Below are positions 15,352 through 21,792 of a DNA stretch of 23,599 nt, piece by piece. Both the position numbers and the translations under genes were made by a program. The stretch comes from a virus, in IMG/VR virus record IMGVR_UViG_3300046467_000343, positions 1 to 23,599 of that record; one strand, written 5' to 3'. Position 1 is the first letter of the stretch, and each line of letters opens with the position of its first letter. The notes under the pieces were generated by a model. The model saw only the letters and a program-made list of their open reading frames with translations. It did no database searches and was not told the origin of the DNA.

Positions 15352-18300
15352 ATGGCAGCTTCATTAAGCGGAGGTGGTGGCGGCGTTATCCGCTCTGGTA
15401 GCACGACAGTCGAAAACGAACCCATCGTCAAATCCGATGGTGCGGGTGAGGTGATGCAATGGATACCGTCTGACGGTGTTGTTGCTGATGGCATTACCAT
15501 TAACGAAGCAGTACTGGGTTATCCGTTGCGGTTGGGGATTGGGACGATTGCGCCACAAAGAACAATTCAAGTTCATAATCCAAACGGTGCTGGAAGTTAC
15601 ATTAGCATAACGGATAATACAACTGGTGCTGCTTCTAGTGATGGCCTCTTGGCGGGTTGTTCGGGGACAAATGCTTATCTCTGGAACTATGAAGCCGGTA
15701 GCTTGGAGTTAGCCACCTCCGGTGTGGCTCGTCTCACTATCGCATCTGGTGGCGCAGTCAGCATCCCCGCAACCGGCAGTTTCACAATCGGCTCGCTGGA
15801 CATTGGCCACGGTTTGGGTGCTGCACCTACAAACACGGCTGTTGGTCAAGACGCACTTGATGCAAGTCATGCTGGTTCGGTTCACAATACTGCTATTGGT
15901 CACTCTGCGTTGACTGCACTGAATGCTGATGCTGGCGATAACAACACAGCGGTTGGGTCGCAAGCTGGTTTGGCTATTACTAATGGCACGCAGAATACCG
16001 CTGTTGGTTCGTACTGTTTGGGTACAGTTGATGGTGATTACAACACAGGGGTTGGATACTTTGCCTTAAACGCTGACTGTGTTGGCCACAATGTGGCAGT
16101 TGGCAAAGAGGCACTGAAAGTATTCACCGGCAGCAATGCAACTGCCGTGGGTAGTGGTGCGGCAGTTGCAGCGACGAGTGCGACTTTCCTGACTGCGGTT
16201 GGTAAAGGTGCTTTGACTGCTTGCGATACTGGACTATCGAACACCAGTGTTGGCTATGCGTCGTTAGCGTCTGTCACGGGTGGGGATCACAACGTCGCCG
16301 TCGGCTCATATGCTGGGAACACATTAGCGGGCGCTGGCGCAAGAAACACTTTCATTGGTACTACCGCTGGACAGTTCACAACGTCTACGGATGACTGTAT
16401 TGCGATTGGTCGAGGTGCGCTTTCTGGAATCGGTGTTATCGGCAACTACAACGCCGATGATGCATCCAACACAAAACAAGCAGACGTTACCGGCAATAAA
16501 AACATTGCCGTCGGGAACTACTGCTTGGATGCGTGTACTTCGGGTACGTCGAATGTGGCCATTGGACAAGATGCACTAACCGCTCTTCTGGGTTCCAGCT
16601 ATAACGTAGCAGCAGGAACCAGTGCTGGTAGCGCTTGCGTTGGGAATAACAATGTTTTTGCAGGCCATCAGGCCGCGCGTTATGCAACAAGTGTCGATCA
16701 TTGTGTGGCAATTGGACGAGGTGCTTTAGCTGGTGACGGCACAACTGCACCAGATGCCAACTACAACATTGCCATCGGTGGCTACTCACTTGATGCAGCG
16801 ACTACGGCTACGGAAAATGTGGCCATTGGCTACGGTAGTTTGGGCGAACTTACTGACCATTCATACAATACTGCTGTTGGCACAAGTGCGGCTGGTTACA
16901 CGATAGGTGCATACAATGTTGTCGTTGGCCGCCAAGCTGCATATTACGCTGGTAATGTTGACCACTGCGTTGCAATCGGCCACGAAGCGTTGAAAGGGCC
17001 AGCGGGCGCTACCGCTACTTGCACTCTTGTGGGTATTGGAGATGCCAGCGTTACTTGTACAGATGATGGGAATACCATAGATGCTGGCTTTTATGTTACG
17101 GGAACAGGTGTTCCAGCAGGAACCACAGTTCTCAGCATCACTACTGGATCATTCGCCAGTGGTAATGTTACTGCGTTCGAGTTATCTGCTGTTGCAACAG
17201 CAAACGGTGCACAAACACTCACGTTCTACAAGAACAGCGGCGACTACAACATTGCCATCGGCAGTTACGCGCTGGATGCAACGACTACGGGGAATCAGAA
17301 TATCGCCATCGGACACAATGCTGGCACGGCAATCACAGACAACACCAACAACATTGCCATTGGTTATCGTGCATTGTTTTCAGCCAACACAGGCGAACTC
17401 TCCAACATCGCCATCGGAACTGATGCGTTATATGCAGAAACTAGTGGTGCAGACGGTTGCGTAGCGATTGGTCACAACGCGTTGGCGGCGCAGAACACCG
17501 ACTTATCAAACAACGTAGCCATTGGCTATCAAGCCGCAACCAATCTCAACGGCGGCACAGACAGTGTGTATGTGGGTTACAAAGCCGGTAGCGTTGGGGC
17601 GATTGAAGGTGATTTCAATACGGTGGTTGGCACAAATGCTGCGTTAAACGCTACGGATATGTCAACCAGCGTGTTTATTGGTTATAATGCTGGTGGTACT
17701 GGTGTTGTGCAGGGTGCAAACAATATTTGTATCGGCACATTGGCTGGCAATGACCTCACTACGGGCGCATCCAACATATTGATCGGCAGAGATGCCGGTA
17801 CGAACTCAAAGTTAGATACTGACAACATAGTCATCGGTAAAAATGCGATGGATGCTGATGTTGCAGATGCTGGCTATTCGCGTACACATAACATAGCTAT
17901 CGGCACGGATGCGCTTGGTGGGGATACTGCTGGTTGTGATTACTGCGTGGCGATTGGTTCTAGCGCACTCATCTTACAAAACGCCGACGTCAAGAACACC
18001 GCCATTGGTGGACTTGCGGGTGATGCGATTGTTGCTGGTTACAGCAATACGTTACTTGGTTATAGTGCCGGTAGCAGTATTGTTGGCGGTCTTAAAAATA
18101 CCGTCATCGGCCATAACGCGTATGTATTAGGAACTGCCAACAATAACACCGTAATAGGTTATGCCGCCGGTGCCTCAACGGTTGACGGAACGCCGACCGC
18201 TGCAATGTCTGGTGCTGACAATGTATTGCTGGGTGCGTCTGCTGGTTACGGACTCACAGACGGCCCCGGCAATGTACTCATCGGCAAGGATGCCGGTCTG

Positions 18301-20226
18301 GCAATGACCACCGGCGATTACAACATCGCCATTGGATGGCACGCTGCTGATGCGTTGGTTGGTAATGCTAACTACAACATTGCGGTTGGTTATAATGCTT
18401 TAGGCGGTTGCACTGCTACAACCCAACACTCTATTGCTATTGGCGCTAACACGCTTGGACACGCTTCATACCACGCCGACAACATCAATTTAGCGATGGG
18501 TTACGACTCCGGTGCGGCAATCACCACCGGCACAGCGAACGTAATGATCGGCCACCAAGCGGGGAGTGCGATTGTTGGTAACGACGATATGACGGCTGTT
18601 GGTTATCAAGCGTTGATGTCGGCTACTGGTGCTGACAATACGGCAGTTGGTACTTTCGCAGCCGCACAAATTACAACGGGTGACAAGAACGTAGCCATCG
18701 GCAGTTGGGCGTTATTCGACGCAAACGGTGATGAAGCGAACAATGTCGCGATTGGTTACGAAGCGTTACACGGGTTAAACGCAGACGCGGGTGACGATAA
18801 CGTAGCGATTGGTTATCAAGCCGGTAAGTTTGACCCCGCTGGAACAGATCCCGCTGACGAACTAGAAGAAGCGACTCAATCAATTTACGTTGGTTCTAGC
18901 ACACGCGCATCAGCTACAACTGGTGTGCTTAACGAGATCGTCATTGGTTACGGCGCAATTGGTCAAGGCGACAACACAATCATGTTGGGGAACTCGTCAG
19001 TTGACTCGACAAATGGTTTGTTTTGTTACGACACAGCGGCAGCTTCTCCATCTGATAGTCGAATCAAGAAGGACGTTGAGGCTTCATCGGTTGGTTTGGA
19101 CTTTATTGAGAAGCTGGCTACGGTTAGCTATAAGAAGATCAACCCAGCAGATTATCCTGTTGAAATCCGCGAAAGTAGATGGTCGGAAACAACCTGCGAA
19201 CAAACCGTCACCCGTGCAGTCGAAGCTGCCGACGAGGTGTGGGAAGACTACGTTGTCCAAGATGCGCGGGAAGCGACTGAAGAAGAAACCCGCGACGAAG
19301 TTCATGCCGCAGTTGCGGAAGTCAAGGAACTGCAAGTAACGCAAGAAGCGTGTGATGAAGAGTGGGAAGAGACTGTTCATCCAGCGGAAGCTGAAGAGAC
19401 AGAAGAACGGGTCACGCAAGAAGCACGCGAGGAGATCAAAGGCGAGCGGCACAAGCACAGCGAAGCGGAAGTCAGCGAAGACGTTACCACCGTGGATTTC
19501 GTGAAGAACGAAGCCGGTAACTACGTTCGCACCGAGACTGCCGAGACGGTCACCCGCACCGAACGCACACCGTTGTACACGGATCACGAAGTAGTGAATC
19601 CAGATGGTACGCCGTGTGTGACAGTTGTGTCGGCGGCGGTTGAAGCCAAAGACGCTGTTGTCGATGAAGACGGCAACGAGACTGAACCGGCGGTTGAAGC
19701 TGTCGCAGAAGTCACCGAGCCGGTCATCCACAAGTGTCCGGTGATGGAAGAGTACGTTGTGCAAGAAGCGTGCGATGAAGTGTGCGAGACGGTTGTCACC
19801 AGAGAAGCCATTGAGGAACGTACAGAACGTCGGTTGGTTCGTGGGGCGCAGGATGAGGTCAAGGAAGAGGTCGTGGTTGTTGAGGCGAAAGCTGAATGGA
19901 CAGAAAAGCACGTCACCAGACCGGCTGAACCGGCCCGCGAAGAAGTCACCGAACGTCGCTTGGTAAGTGCCGCTGTCGAGGCGAAAGCTGCCGTCTACGA
20001 GACGGTCACGGTTCCCGCTGATGATCGACCAGCAGATATTGATATGCCGCATCTCGGCCTGATAGCGCAAGACGTACAAACCGCAATGACTGAAGCGGGT
20101 GTGGAATTTCCGTTAGTGGCGGAAACCTCTGGAGGAATGTTTGCTGTTAAATATGGCAACTTGGTGATGCCATTGATTAAGGCGGTGCAAGAACTTTCAG
20201 CAAGGGTGAAGACACTTGAAGGATAA
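15352..20226 (+). CDS. Giant tail fibre: YadA-head-type repeats with C-terminal S74 autocleaving chaperone
   Basis: A 1624-aa protein. Residues about 1-155 form a fibre N-terminal region. From about 160 to 1220 there are roughly fifty-five copies of a short motif like NxAIG or NTAVG, usually followed by AL or AG, spaced about 15-28 residues: the left-handed beta-roll (Hep_Hag type) of trimeric adhesin heads. About residues 549-632 a different beta module interrupts the series (VTGTGVPAGTTVLSITTG). The C-terminus is a peptidase S74 intramolecular chaperone: SDSRIKKD (S1234, K1239) is the self-cleavage motif, and HLGLIAQDVQ (from H1567) and KYGNLVMPLIKAVQEL close it. Between these halves about 290 acidic residues are inserted (about 1270-1562). 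It is probably a long trimeric receptor-binding fibre, released from its chaperone after folding. Confidence 0.88.
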   Translation: MAASLSGGGGGVIRSGSTTVENEPIVKSDGAGEVMQWIPSDGVVADGITINEAVLGYPLRLGIGTIAPQRTIQVHNPNGAGSYISITDNTTGAASSDGLLAGCSGTNAYLWNYEAGSLELATSGVARLTIASGGAVSIPATGSFTIGSLDIGHGLGAAPTNTAVGQDALDASHAGSVHNTAIGHSALTALNADAGDNNTAVGSQAGLAITNGTQNTAVGSYCLGTVDGDYNTGVGYFALNADCVGHNVAVGKEALKVFTGSNATAVGSGAAVAATSATFLTAVGKGALTACDTGLSNTSVGYASLASVTGGDHNVAVGSYAGNTLAGAGARNTFIGTTAGQFTTSTDDCIAIGRGALSGIGVIGNYNADDASNTKQADVTGNKNIAVGNYCLDACTSGTSNVAIGQDALTALLGSSYNVAAGTSAGSACVGNNNVFAGHQAARYATSVDHCVAIGRGALAGDGTTAPDANYNIAIGGYSLDAATTATENVAIGYGSLGELTDHSYNTAVGTSAAGYTIGAYNVVVGRQAAYYAGNVDHCVAIGHEALKGPAGATATCTLVGIGDASVTCTDDGNTIDAGFYVTGTGVPAGTTVLSITTGSFASGNVTAFELSAVATANGAQTLTFYKNSGDYNIAIGSYALDATTTGNQNIAIGHNAGTAITDNTNNIAIGYRALFSANTGELSNIAIGTDALYAETSGADGCVAIGHNALAAQNTDLSNNVAIGYQAATNLNGGTDSVYVGYKAGSVGAIEGDFNTVVGTNAALNATDMSTSVFIGYNAGGTGVVQGANNICIGTLAGNDLTTGASNILIGRDAGTNSKLDTDNIVIGKNAMDADVADAGYSRTHNIAIGTDALGGDTAGCDYCVAIGSSALILQNADVKNTAIGGLAGDAIVAGYSNTLLGYSAGSSIVGGLKNTVIGHNAYVLGTANNNTVIGYAAGASTVDGTPTAAMSGADNVLLGASAGYGLTDGPGNVLIGKDAGLAMTTGDYNIAIGWHAADALVGNANYNIAVGYNALGGCTATTQHSIAIGANTLGHASYHADNINLAMGYDSGAAITTGTANVMIGHQAGSAIVGNDDMTAVGYQALMSATGADNTAVGTFAAAQITTGDKNVAIGSWALFDANGDEANNVAIGYEALHGLNADAGDDNVAIGYQAGKFDPAGTDPADELEEATQSIYVGSSTRASATTGVLNEIVIGYGAIGQGDNTIMLGNSSVDSTNGLFCYDTAAASPSDSRIKKDVEASSVGLDFIEKLATVSYKKINPADYPVEIRESRWSETTCEQTVTRAVEAADEVWEDYVVQDAREATEEETRDEVHAAVAEVKELQVTQEACDEEWEETVHPAEAEETEERVTQEAREEIKGERHKHSEAEVSEDVTTVDFVKNEAGNYVRTETAETVTRTERTPLYTDHEVVNPDGTPCVTVVSAAVEAKDAVVDEDGNETEPAVEAVAEVTEPVIHKCPVMEEYVVQEACDEVCETVVTREAIEERTERRLVRGAQDEVKEEVVVVEAKAEWTEKHVTRPAEPAREEVTERRLVSAAVEAKAAVYETVTVPADDRPADIDMPHLGLIAQDVQTAMTEAGVEFPLVAETSGGMFAVKYGNLVMPLIKAVQELSARVKTLEG
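19141..20037 (+). repeat. Degenerate acidic repeats inserted in the S74 domain
   Basis: This part of the fibre gene encodes Val/Thr/Glu/Ala-rich phrases of the type VTQEA, EETVxxAEAEE and VSAAVEAK. A 20-base segment starting GCAAGAAGCGTG recurs with one change at 19341-19360 and 19761-19780 (VTQEACDEEWEETV against VVQEACDEVCETVV), and the ERRLVRGAQDEV and ERRLVSAAVEAK phrases near 19830 and 19960 are further related copies. The pattern suggests growth by internal duplication. Confidence 0.65.
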
Positions 20227-20229
20227 TTT

Positions 20230-20469
20230 ATGGCAGCAGAAGCAACACAGCAGGATAAGTCCGTTGTTACAATCAACGGAGAGGAGCACAATGTATCGGA
20301 TTTGTCTCAAGAACAAATGGCGCTATTAGACCAAGTTGTTGATCTTGATCGCAAGATTGGCCAGATGGGTTTTAGTTTGGCCCAAGTTCAAGGAGCGAAG
20401 AACTTCTTTATGGGCCAGCTAACGGCGAGCCTCGAGGAGAGGGCGGAGCCTGAAGAGGAAAAGAGCTAA
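20230..20469 (+). CDS. Small helical protein following the fibre, DUF6447-like
   Basis: A 79-aa protein. A short beta start (VVTINGEEHNVSDL) leads into a helical hairpin (about 27-72) and an acidic tail. A start of V-x-I-x-G-x-x-H/Y-x-x-x-D-L-S followed by a helix that counts pairs of glutamines and lysines is the layout of small phage proteins such as the DUF6447 type often encoded beside tail fibres in cyanophages; the link is from memory of the pattern and is unverified. It begins 3 bases after the fibre stop with AAGGA upstream, so it may be a fibre assembly partner. Confidence 0.75.
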   Translation: MAAEATQQDKSVVTINGEEHNVSDLSQEQMALLDQVVDLDRKIGQMGFSLAQVQGAKNFFMGQLTASLEERAEPEEEKS

Positions 20470-20506: not shown

Positions 20507-20893
20507 ATGACAAACAACATAGACCCAGCGGTTGTCGAGCAACTAGCCGAGCGGGCGGTAGGTCACTACGGATGGATGTTATTTGCGGCCTTTGCCGCTC
20601 TGATGTGCAAGGACGTGCTTGCCAAGTTCATCGCGGGTTTGTTGGTGTTCTGGGGGAGTGCGTTTAAGAATGATGAAATCCTCTACATCAGCGGGCGGCG
20701 GGCGAGGGTGATTCGGATGGGCATTACCGCGACAACTTTCCAAATGAGCGACCGCAAATCGACGATGATTGTTCCTAACTGCCAGCTGACCCAGCTGACC
20801 GTCGAACGGCGTTTACCGCAGAACGGCGGTGAGAGCTATCTGCCAAAAGGCAGCGAGATTGGGGCAGCAAAGGTGGAGATTATGGACGAATGA
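20507..20893 (+). CDS. Truncated MscS-type mechanosensitive channel protein
   Basis: A 128-aa protein with one membrane segment (about 22-50, GWMLFAAFAALM through FIAGLLVFWGSAF) followed by a soluble beta domain (about 53-103) ending in a VPN motif (89-91). The order AGLL, FKNDE, ISG, RV, TATTF, SD, IVPN runs parallel to the E. coli MscS pore helix TM3 and beta domain (AGVLL, FRAGE, LGG, TV, STTM, AD, VIPN). MscS helices TM1 and TM2 and the C-terminal alpha/beta cage are absent; MscS itself is about 286 aa. It could assemble as a small ring in the inner membrane. It heads the cassette of small membrane and lipoprotein genes, with its stop overlapping the next ATG (ATGA), suggesting a role in lysis or ion balance. 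Confidence 0.7.
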   Translation: MTNNIDPAVVEQLAERAVGHYGWMLFAAFAALMCKDVLAKFIAGLLVFWGSAFKNDEILYISGRRARVIRMGITATTFQMSDRKSTMIVPNCQLTQLTVERRLPQNGGESYLPKGSEIGAAKVEIMDE

Positions 20894-21096
20894 AACGGAT
20901 GTTGATTATTGTGGCAATCTGCGCAGCCATCATATGGCTGTCGGTGGGATGCAAAAACCTAAAGGAAGTTGACTTCGGAATCACAGGGCTTGAGGCCGAG
21001 TGGTATGAACCACCACCGTTACCGCCGCAGACGGTGACTCTGACCAACGCGCCAGCTGGCAGCTGGCTTCCGAGGTTGATGCAGCGAGGGGATTGA
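20890..21096 (+). CDS. Small Pro-rich lipoprotein, Rz1-like outer-membrane spanin candidate
   Basis: A 68-aa protein with a basic start (MKRM), a hydrophobic stretch (about 5-18) and a lipobox LSVGC with Cys21 as the predicted lipidated residue. The mature part is about 48 aa and contains a proline cluster (EPPPLPPQT), as in Rz1-type o-spanins that sit in the outer membrane during lysis. It overlaps the MscS-like gene by ATGA and is followed by a holin-like gene. A partner inner-membrane spanin with a typical TM plus periplasmic coiled coil is not evident, so the spanin call is tentative; a general phage lipoprotein is the alternative. Confidence 0.7.
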   Translation: MKRMLIIVAICAAIIWLSVGCKNLKEVDFGITGLEAEWYEPPPLPPQTVTLTNAPAGSWLPRLMQRGD

Positions 21097-21100
21097 ACTT

Positions 21101-21280
21101 GTGCTTGGGCTTATCACATTGGACGATATGAAGGTGGGCGCTGCCTCCACCACGGGGCTTGGCAGTTGGGTGGTAGAGGTGGGGCTGGTACTTCAAATCA
21201 CAATATCGTTGGCCAGCTTGTTCTATATTGTGCTAAAGATAAGGGAGCAGCTGGCGAGGAACCGGCGGCGAAGGAAGTGA
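21101..21280 (+). CDS. Small membrane protein, possible T7-type (class II) holin; GTG start
   Basis: A 59-aa protein starting at GTG (21101), 9 bases after GAGGGG (21086-21091). It reads from LGLITLDDMKVGAAS through one membrane segment (about 22-45, SWVVEVGLVLQITISLASLF) to a strongly basic tail (KIREQLARNRRRRK). A short soluble N-terminus, one membrane helix and a basic cytoplasmic C-terminus resemble T7 gp17.5-type holins, which form membrane lesions that trigger lysis. An ATG at 21128 is an alternative start without a ribosome site. It lies between two small membrane genes in the lysis-like cassette, fitting the 21097-21288 gap exactly. There is no sequence-level proof of holin activity. 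Confidence 0.65.
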   Translation: MLGLITLDDMKVGAASTTGLGSWVVEVGLVLQITISLASLFYIVLKIREQLARNRRRRK

Positions 21281-21288
21281 GTTTTATT

Positions 21289-21477
21289 ATGTTAACTGGT
21301 AAAAAGACCTATATGACGGCAGCTGGCGGGGTACTCGCAGCTGTGGGGGCATACCTCTCCGGCGATCTGGAGCTTGGTATGATGCTGAACATCGTGATCA
21401 CCAGCCTGCTGGCTGTGTTCCTGCGCAAAGGTGTCAAGTCCGACACCGGCGTGGACGAGTCCGAAGCTGGCTCGTGA
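21289..21477 (+). CDS. Small membrane protein, holin-like
   Basis: A 62-aa protein starting at ATG 21289, downstream of AAGGAA (21271-21276). It opens MLTGKKTYMTAAGGVLAAVG, then has a hydrophobic stretch around 8-22 and a second membrane segment (about 32-47, MLNIVITSLLAVFLRKG), with a charged, Ser/Asp/Glu-rich end. The GKKTY start and LRxG after the last helix are common in small phage membrane proteins of the lysis or tail-associated type. It might act with the preceding protein as a holin/antiholin pair, which is inferred from proximity. The frame extends upstream to 21166, but that part overlaps the preceding gene and has no ribosome site. Its stop overlaps the next GTG (GTGA). Confidence 0.75.
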   Translation: MLTGKKTYMTAAGGVLAAVGAYLSGDLELGMMLNIVITSLLAVFLRKGVKSDTGVDESEAGS

Positions 21478-21647
21478 GCTGGTTGCTCGGATTGATTCGT
21501 GGTTTAGGCGGGCTGCGCGAGCTGATTGTCCAGCTGTTCAGCGCCTCCCGTAACGTGAGCGCCAATGTCCGGCTCAAGAAGAAAGATCGCGGCGTGGATG
21601 ACGCTATCGCTGCTGCCCGCGATCGCGACCGGCTGCGCAAGCGTTAA
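21474..21647 (+). CDS. 57-aa basic amphipathic protein; GTG start
   Basis: GTG at 21474 overlaps the preceding TGA (GTGA). The frame runs 57 codons to TAA. Its start SWLLGLIRGLGGLRELIVQL is amphipathic rather than clearly transmembrane, as it holds two Arg and a Glu, and the C-terminal half is very basic with an RDRDRLRKR end. No family is recognised. The next lipoprotein gene starts inside it in another frame, the arrangement of nested Rz/Rz1 spanin pairs, but a typical inner-membrane anchor is lacking. It may be membrane-associated and part of lysis. The gene is easily missed because it is short and GTG-started. Confidence 0.5.
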   Translation: MSWLLGLIRGLGGLRELIVQLFSASRNVSANVRLKKKDRGVDDAIAAARDRDRLRKR

Positions 21648-21792
21648 CCTCAACAACGCCGAGCGGCTCGTCCAGAGCCACGCGGTTGGGTTCGCCGATG
21701 CGGTCAACGCCTCGGTCGAGGCGGAGGCGTTTGTTCGCGACTCGCTGAAGACGATCAACCGGCTTGAGGCGGTCATCGAGAGAGGCGACTAG
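21565..21792 (+). CDS. Small helical lipoprotein overlapping the upstream gene
   Basis: A 75-aa protein with a basic start (SGSRRK), a hydrophobic run (about 8-21) and a Cys at 24 after AIATG, a fair but non-ideal lipobox. The mature 52 residues look helical (LNNAERLVQSHAVGFADAV, then RDSLKTINRLEAVIERGD). It begins 83 bases inside the 57-aa gene in a different frame, like nested o-spanin genes, but it lacks the proline-rich character of Rz1. Small lipoproteins of this layout occur at the end of phage lysis cassettes. It is the last gene of the cassette before a 154-base regulatory gap. Confidence 0.7.
   Translation: MSGSRRKIAAWMTLSLLPAIATGCASVNLNNAERLVQSHAVGFADAVNASVEAEAFVRDSLKTINRLEAVIERGD

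Follow-up and report, generated by a model that had tools for sequence, protein, structure and literature searches.

What can a virus of prokaryotes do with the pore-forming core of the mechanosensitive channel MscS and none of the rest of that protein? This question is raised by an open reading frame (ORF) at positions 20507-20893 of a 23,599-nucleotide stretch of viral DNA (positions 1 to 23,599 of IMG/VR record IMGVR_UViG_3300046467_000343; the whole stretch is referred to below as the window). Its product, here named protein M, had been interpreted from the sequence alone as a minimal MscS pore at the head of a lysis-like gene cassette (the original prediction). Computational analysis revealed that M belongs to the MscS superfamily via a helix equivalent to transmembrane helix 3 (TM3) and the beta domain, but is not a canonical MscS. 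Moreover, M, or an unrelated protein (B) found in its place, constitutes together with a small lipoprotein (L) an accessory module, the two genes being passed on and swapped together in the vicinity of lysis-type genes.

The MscS-type core of protein M

The M gene (plus strand, ATG start, TGA stop) encodes a product of 128 amino acids (aa) with a single hydrophobic segment at residues ~23-50 (Kyte-Doolittle), and the ORF list and hydropathy plot thus agree with the one-helix protein described originally. Its features are:

20507..20893, plus strand: M, minimal MscS-family protein with a short N-terminal segment, one transmembrane (TM) helix in register with MscS TM3a/TM3b, an MscS beta domain and a tail of ~28 residues (PF00924, alignments, AlphaFold)
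20612..20803, plus strand: PF00924 match within M, over the cut-off in a search of the DNA record

The original prediction had proposed a profile search for similarity to the TM3 helix and beta domain of MscS, and such similarity was found. PF00924 (MS_channel_2nd, the MscS beta domain) matches residues 36-99 of M with an E-value (E) of 1.8e-6 and 28.4 bits (curated cut-off, 20.2 bits). It was also matched by all members (15/15) of an M orthologue set and was over the cut-off in 21/21 viral records searched, with 14/14 control genomes positive. In a comparison of 26 phage M orthologues with 7 bacterial MscS proteins, hhalign aligned columns 31-96 with E 4.9e-6 and a probability of 86%, while a control against a neighbouring family with two TM helices gave E 0.22. 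A PDB sequence search with M returned weak leads only, with the MscS family on top (MSL1, E 0.017), and the identity between M and bacterial MscS is ~20-25% in the aligned core. Judged by these sequence comparisons, the resemblance of M to MscS exceeds chance.

The register proposed earlier (AGLL, FKNDE, ISG, TATTF, SD and IVPN) was recovered in a multiple alignment with bacterial MscS, in which the TM3b motif (KD-x-[LIM]-x-N-F-x-x-G) and the PN motif of the phage family are in register with the bacterial proteins. Thus, K35-D36 of M aligns on Q112-G113 of E. coli MscS, i.e. on the TM3a/TM3b kink (D at the kink also occurs in bacterial MscS, e.g. in KDIFQNLLSG of an Acinetobacter MscS), residue 40 on N117 (N in most relatives, K in the M of the window), G44 on G121, and V89-P90-N91 on the conserved I/V-P-N. 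Position 32, the equivalent of the E. coli MscS gate residue L109, is mostly leucine in the phage family. Both TM1/TM2 (canonical MscS has three or more TM helices) and the C-terminal alpha/beta cage of canonical MscS are absent from M and from every full-length orthologue. The helix is preceded by ~20 residues in the lineage of the window (~40 in a second lineage, described below), and ~28 residues (100-128) follow the beta domain. Only the pore core, a TM3-like helix with the beta domain, has therefore been retained, as was originally proposed.

Structure prediction of the monomer, also suggested with the original prediction, gave an MscS-type fold. The AlphaFold model, built on an alignment of 52 rows (19 phage and 33 bacterial MscS), comprises a helix (residues 7-50) followed by a five-strand beta domain, with a mean predicted local distance difference test (pLDDT) score of 73. 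The predicted fold is thus supported, yet dependent on the homology assumption, as bacterial MscS rows were included in the alignment. When the model was compared with the PDB using Foldseek, MscS-family channels were found throughout the list, except for two entries titled just 'membrane protein'. Small BFVD entries matching the model (A0A516LVN0, A0A1B1IQW5 and A0A516MLU7; no name attached) suggest that further M relatives exist.

The tail of M carries a motif, NGGxxYLPKG (residues 104-128, window 20818-20893), which is almost invariant across the phage family and has no counterpart in the aligned bacterial MscS segments. It is a possible contact site for a partner.

Spread and conservation of the M family

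Successive scans of IMG/VR yielded 3, 17, 20 and 94 relatives of M (one of the first 3 was rejected; L003, whose genes run on the other strand, was a false positive). Once near-copies had been removed, 74 distinct IMG/VR loci with M remained, which is in agreement with the claim that M is phage-encoded and defines a real viral family. Full-length copies are 128-163 aa long and the mean column identity is 78%. The median ratio of nonsynonymous to synonymous substitution rates (dN/dS) is 0.08 over 12 pairs, i.e. M is under purifying selection and is therefore neither a pseudogene nor a chance ORF; together with the 74 loci, this rules out a chance ORF or a truncated pseudogene.

A second M lineage (L323-L336), sharing 45-55% identity, was identified in different phages, with marine cyanophage- or pelagiphage-like genes. 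Its M proteins (139-163 aa, with a lipoprotein on either side of M) include:

L331:4935-5378, second-lineage M
L332:4935-5378, second-lineage M
L326:1574-2008, second-lineage M
L327:4926-5345, second-lineage M
L323:4962-5453, second-lineage M

Searching annotated phages by tblastn (three queries) gave no M relative. A single scan of 84,980 prokaryote genomes with two peptide patterns, which is of limited sensitivity, detected nothing related to the phage form. On the latter result, within that sensitivity, a host-derived or prophage gene was rejected as an explanation of M. Roseobacter phages sharing the protein encoded upstream of M (F, see below) carry no mini-MscS annotation at the corresponding place, and the literature on phage-encoded MscS yielded only giant- and algal-virus cases. 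The statement that no standard annotation exists for this protein therefore held for annotated phages and publications alike: the two lineages together account for at least 74 distinct viral loci with M, and no annotated phage with M was found.

Seventeen INPHARED matches to E. coli MscS were rejected as phage MscS genes, as they resemble bacterial chromosome fragments filed as phage. Among the matches inspected, one annotated region lies among chromosomal genes, and the others are unannotated and encode ordinary long MscS proteins. Records of this type, filed as phage but with ordinary long MscS genes, include MT836427, CAKLQH020000013 and OR850920; at least the Acinetobacter record has a bacterial chromosomal context. 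Such records are a trap for surveys of phage-encoded MscS.

The module of M or B with lipoprotein L

In the lineage of the window, the gene order is tail fibre - F - M - L - T - H - nested spanin-like pair. The neighbours of M are:

15352..20226, plus strand: long tail fibre/spike with a C-terminal S74 chaperone, upstream of the cassette
20230..20469, plus strand: F, tail-fibre-associated small protein preceding M or its replacement (phrog_21153, unknown function)
20890..21096, plus strand: L, small lipoprotein of 68 aa (signal helix, ...SVGC|KNLKEVD...), its start overlapping the M stop by ATGA
21101..21280, plus strand: T, membrane protein of ~50-60 aa, holin candidate by size and place only
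21289..21477, plus strand: H, two-helix membrane protein of ~60 aa with weak similarity to the holin family phrog_3428 (E 0.05-0.07)
21474..21647, plus strand: first gene of the spanin-like nested pair, candidate inner partner (this arrangement occurs in many relatives; no family match)
21565..21792, plus strand: lipoprotein gene starting out of frame inside the preceding gene and running past its end (Rz1-like arrangement)

The tail fibre/spike (1624 aa) has many NIAIGxxAL-type repeats and a long, Glu/Val-rich repetitive segment past the S74 start. Neither member of the nested pair matched a known family, and its candidate inner partner is without a clear TM helix. In G008 (L032/L034; 41.3 kb), the ORFs at 122-382 and 40992-41252 resemble each other, which points to a terminal repeat and hence to a genome that is nearly complete.

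That M directly follows the tail fibre and F in one lineage, and that structural genes are located downstream in several relatives (SU10 adaptor), would suit a virion or DNA-entry component, a tail-cluster product forming an inner-membrane pore for genome ejection. This is highly improbable, since M is absent from close relatives with the same tail genes, is not beside recognised tail fibre genes in the second lineage, and pairs with a lipoprotein gene.

The position of M just before a lipoprotein gene, noted originally, was confirmed in the window, and pairing with such a gene is the rule in the family. A recognised L gene lies beside M in 68 of the 74 M loci, with the ATGA overlap in 22 loci including the window, and beside B in 43 of the 44 B loci, while L without M or B was found at only 6 loci (4 of them cut at a contig edge). 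L was not recognised at six M loci; the two of these that were inspected, L331 and L332, have a lipobox ORF immediately upstream of M. The second lineage keeps the pairing with the order partly reversed, L preceding or following M. In L332 the next gene encodes a 93-aa membrane protein matching the Rz-like spanin family phrog_1026 (E 3.9e-4). The partner lipoprotein family is itself unnamed and unannotated.

Scans anchored on T and F revealed sister cassettes in which the slot of M is occupied by B, a protein of ~97 aa that combines a single helix with a coiled coil (phrog_18771, function unknown; 44 loci), for which no MscS similarity was found. B is itself a candidate holin or exclusion protein. 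Examples are:

L049:711-1007, B
L078:3563-3856, B
42 other loci, B

M and B occur together at none of the loci (M 74, B 44). A record-wide search found no M elsewhere in B-type or module-free records. No convincing B was detected in M-type records (one weak match, E 3.9e-4, in a 1769-residue open frame; control B records were positive). A tree of F, T and H from 54 cassettes requires a minimum of 4 switches between M and B, and of 13 when the absence of both is counted as a third state; the two figures are approximate since these proteins are short. One pair of phages, L007 (M) and L078 (B), is 91.5% identical across the upstream 798 bp and 95.4% identical across the downstream 3755 bp, the difference being confined to the slot. 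The exchanged block stops within the signal-peptide portion of L, so that both phages have the same mature lipoprotein.

Allelic replacement between near-identical phages, along with presence/absence variation, is typical of superinfection exclusion genes, the module adjoins the tail fibre cluster, and small phage lipoproteins with an exclusion role are known (Llp of T5 and Ltp of TP-J34). An inner-membrane M or B and an outer-membrane L might accordingly keep the DNA of a second phage from entering, or protect the phage's own host. Such exclusion or envelope immunity is nevertheless unlikely, as M is strongly conserved (by the identity and dN/dS given above), unlike typical fast-diversifying exclusion genes, and lysis-type genes adjoin it in two lineages.

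The exchange also bears on the proposal that M is a dominant-negative or hetero-oligomeric partner of host MscS, entering host rings and jamming or opening them. The TM3 helix and beta domain are part of the MscS oligomer interface, and the retention of this segment was confirmed by the fold matches. Such a role is very unlikely, however: the identity to bacterial MscS is low, a task shared with B, which lacks MscS similarity, would not be host MscS binding, and MscS2 of the microsporidian Nematocida displodere, a homo-heptameric membrane channel made from a TM3-like helix and beta domain, shows that the core can form a ring alone (PMC11262690).

Alternatively, M might be a true mechanosensitive safety valve, gated by tension and venting osmolytes late in infection, which would delay premature bursting. 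It keeps the TM3 kink and the motif with the N117 equivalent, and its core is that of Trypanosoma cruzi TcMscS, which has no cage, is mechanosensitive and forms its pore from TM3 and the beta domain (PMC12334622). On the other hand, M lacks TM1/TM2, the helices with which MscS chiefly senses tension (TcMscS still has TM2), and a specific tension-gated valve would hardly be replaceable by B, an unrelated coiled-coil protein, which makes this reading distinctly unlikely.

Possible role of M and comparison with known systems

The leading reading, favoured because of the genomic place of M and held tentatively, at somewhat less than an even chance, is that of an accessory, swappable module of an inner-membrane protein and a lipoprotein, acting as a holin-like or venting channel late in infection. 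The helix of M would be the TM3 equivalent, with its N-terminus outside and its C-terminus in the cytoplasm. Through the beta domain, subunits would assemble into a ring, heptameric if microsporidian MscS2 and TcMscS are a guide, and the helices of this ring would line a pore in the host inner membrane; we infer a ring with a pore because a TM3-like helix with a beta domain suffices for the MscS2 channel and because cage-less TcMscS is active. In partnership with lipoprotein L of the outer membrane, M would belong to an accessory module within the late envelope/lysis region, and it may permeabilise or vent the inner membrane near the end of infection, as an auxiliary holin-like or pinholin-like channel setting or assisting the timing of lysis. 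B would do the same job in sister phages with the same lipoprotein. All that M and B have in common is a short N-terminal stretch, one helix and a cytoplasmic domain of a presumably self-associating kind, and this layout suggests that both serve to bring helices together within the inner membrane.

In size and single helix, M appears compatible with a small holin. It does not resemble the inner partner of a two-component spanin, which has a long periplasmic coiled coil: only ~20 residues precede its helix, and its folded domain would, by the topology of MscS, be the cytoplasmic beta domain. The surroundings were described originally as a lysis-like cassette with a T7-type holin candidate. M does lie beside small membrane-protein genes, and a survey of other phages placed it beside lysis-type genes in two lineages. 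The T7-type holin candidate is weakly supported, however, and that the cassette is a lysis cassette was not established, the one Rz-like spanin match being in the second lineage.

Several observations weigh against a role in lysis or a pore of MscS type. The holin labels of T and H are weak (E 0.03-0.2 in PHROG). No lysozyme, amidase or peptidase gene was recognised in the cassette, so that there is no adjacent endolysin, and the M15_4 and Amidase_2 domains are absent from 16 records. In 3 records an RlpA-like DPBB protein is encoded away from the cassette. In addition, 16 complete cassettes lack M, B and L, i.e. the module is not essential for lysis. Position 28, the equivalent of the MscS gate residue L105, is alanine in the M family, with glycine instead in at least some second-lineage members. 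Finally, with the phage rows alone AlphaFold reached a pLDDT of 48 and gave no usable model, and the fold is therefore not independent of the homology assumption. The DPBB matches, to an RlpA-like lytic transglycosylase domain, are located at L032:983-1447, G039:7311-7550 and G042:3073-3312, and the L032 protein, with its N-terminal membrane anchor, is possibly an endolysin encoded away from the cassette.

The suggestion that M is itself a new type of holin was not established. M matched no PHROG family up to E 1, hence no known holin family, and is dispensable and exchanged for an unrelated membrane protein; for these last two reasons it is better regarded as an accessory part than as the sole holin. 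A stronger version, in which M stands for a novel kind of membrane-lesion protein in phages, a holin or pinholin pore derived from MscS that works with an outer-membrane lipoprotein and can functionally be exchanged for B, is doubtful. If M does act in lysis, phages would have turned a channel fold that protects the host against osmotic lysis into a lysis tool. Since phages naturally swap M and B while keeping one mature lipoprotein, exchange experiments could probe function directly.

M is the smallest MscS-type protein that we encountered in a prokaryotic system and, as an experiment of evolution, can tell which MscS parts are enough to make a pore. Holins and pinholins are likewise small membrane proteins encoded among small membrane-protein genes and a spanin-like pair, but M differs from them in its lack of family similarity, of an endolysin beside it and of indispensability, and in its folded, probably cytoplasmic, beta domain. 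Giant and algal viruses carry MscS- or MscL-like genes (PMC6163359), and a 261-aa protein of an Aureococcus anophagefferens virus was among the Foldseek matches to the M model; unlike M, these genes belong to viruses of eukaryotes, are sporadic, encode proteins of MscL type or, in the MscS type, with three TM helices, and have no reported pairing with a lipoprotein. E. coli MscS, YnaI and plant MSL1 share with M the TM3b kink motif, the beta strands and the PN motif in register and are its best fold matches, whereas canonical MscS differs in its three or more TM helices, its C-terminal cage and the low identity of the core. The closest precedents of M are two minimal heptameric MscS channels, TcMscS and microsporidian MscS2. 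TcMscS, like M, has no cage, but it keeps TM2. MscS2 is, like M, a minimal core, although it is a gene of a eukaryotic parasite with a possible signal peptide and no lipoprotein partner. The extreme N-terminal truncation of MscS2 was, to its authors' knowledge, unique to microsporidia (PMC11262690), and the phage M family is a second instance of such truncation, in prokaryotic viruses.
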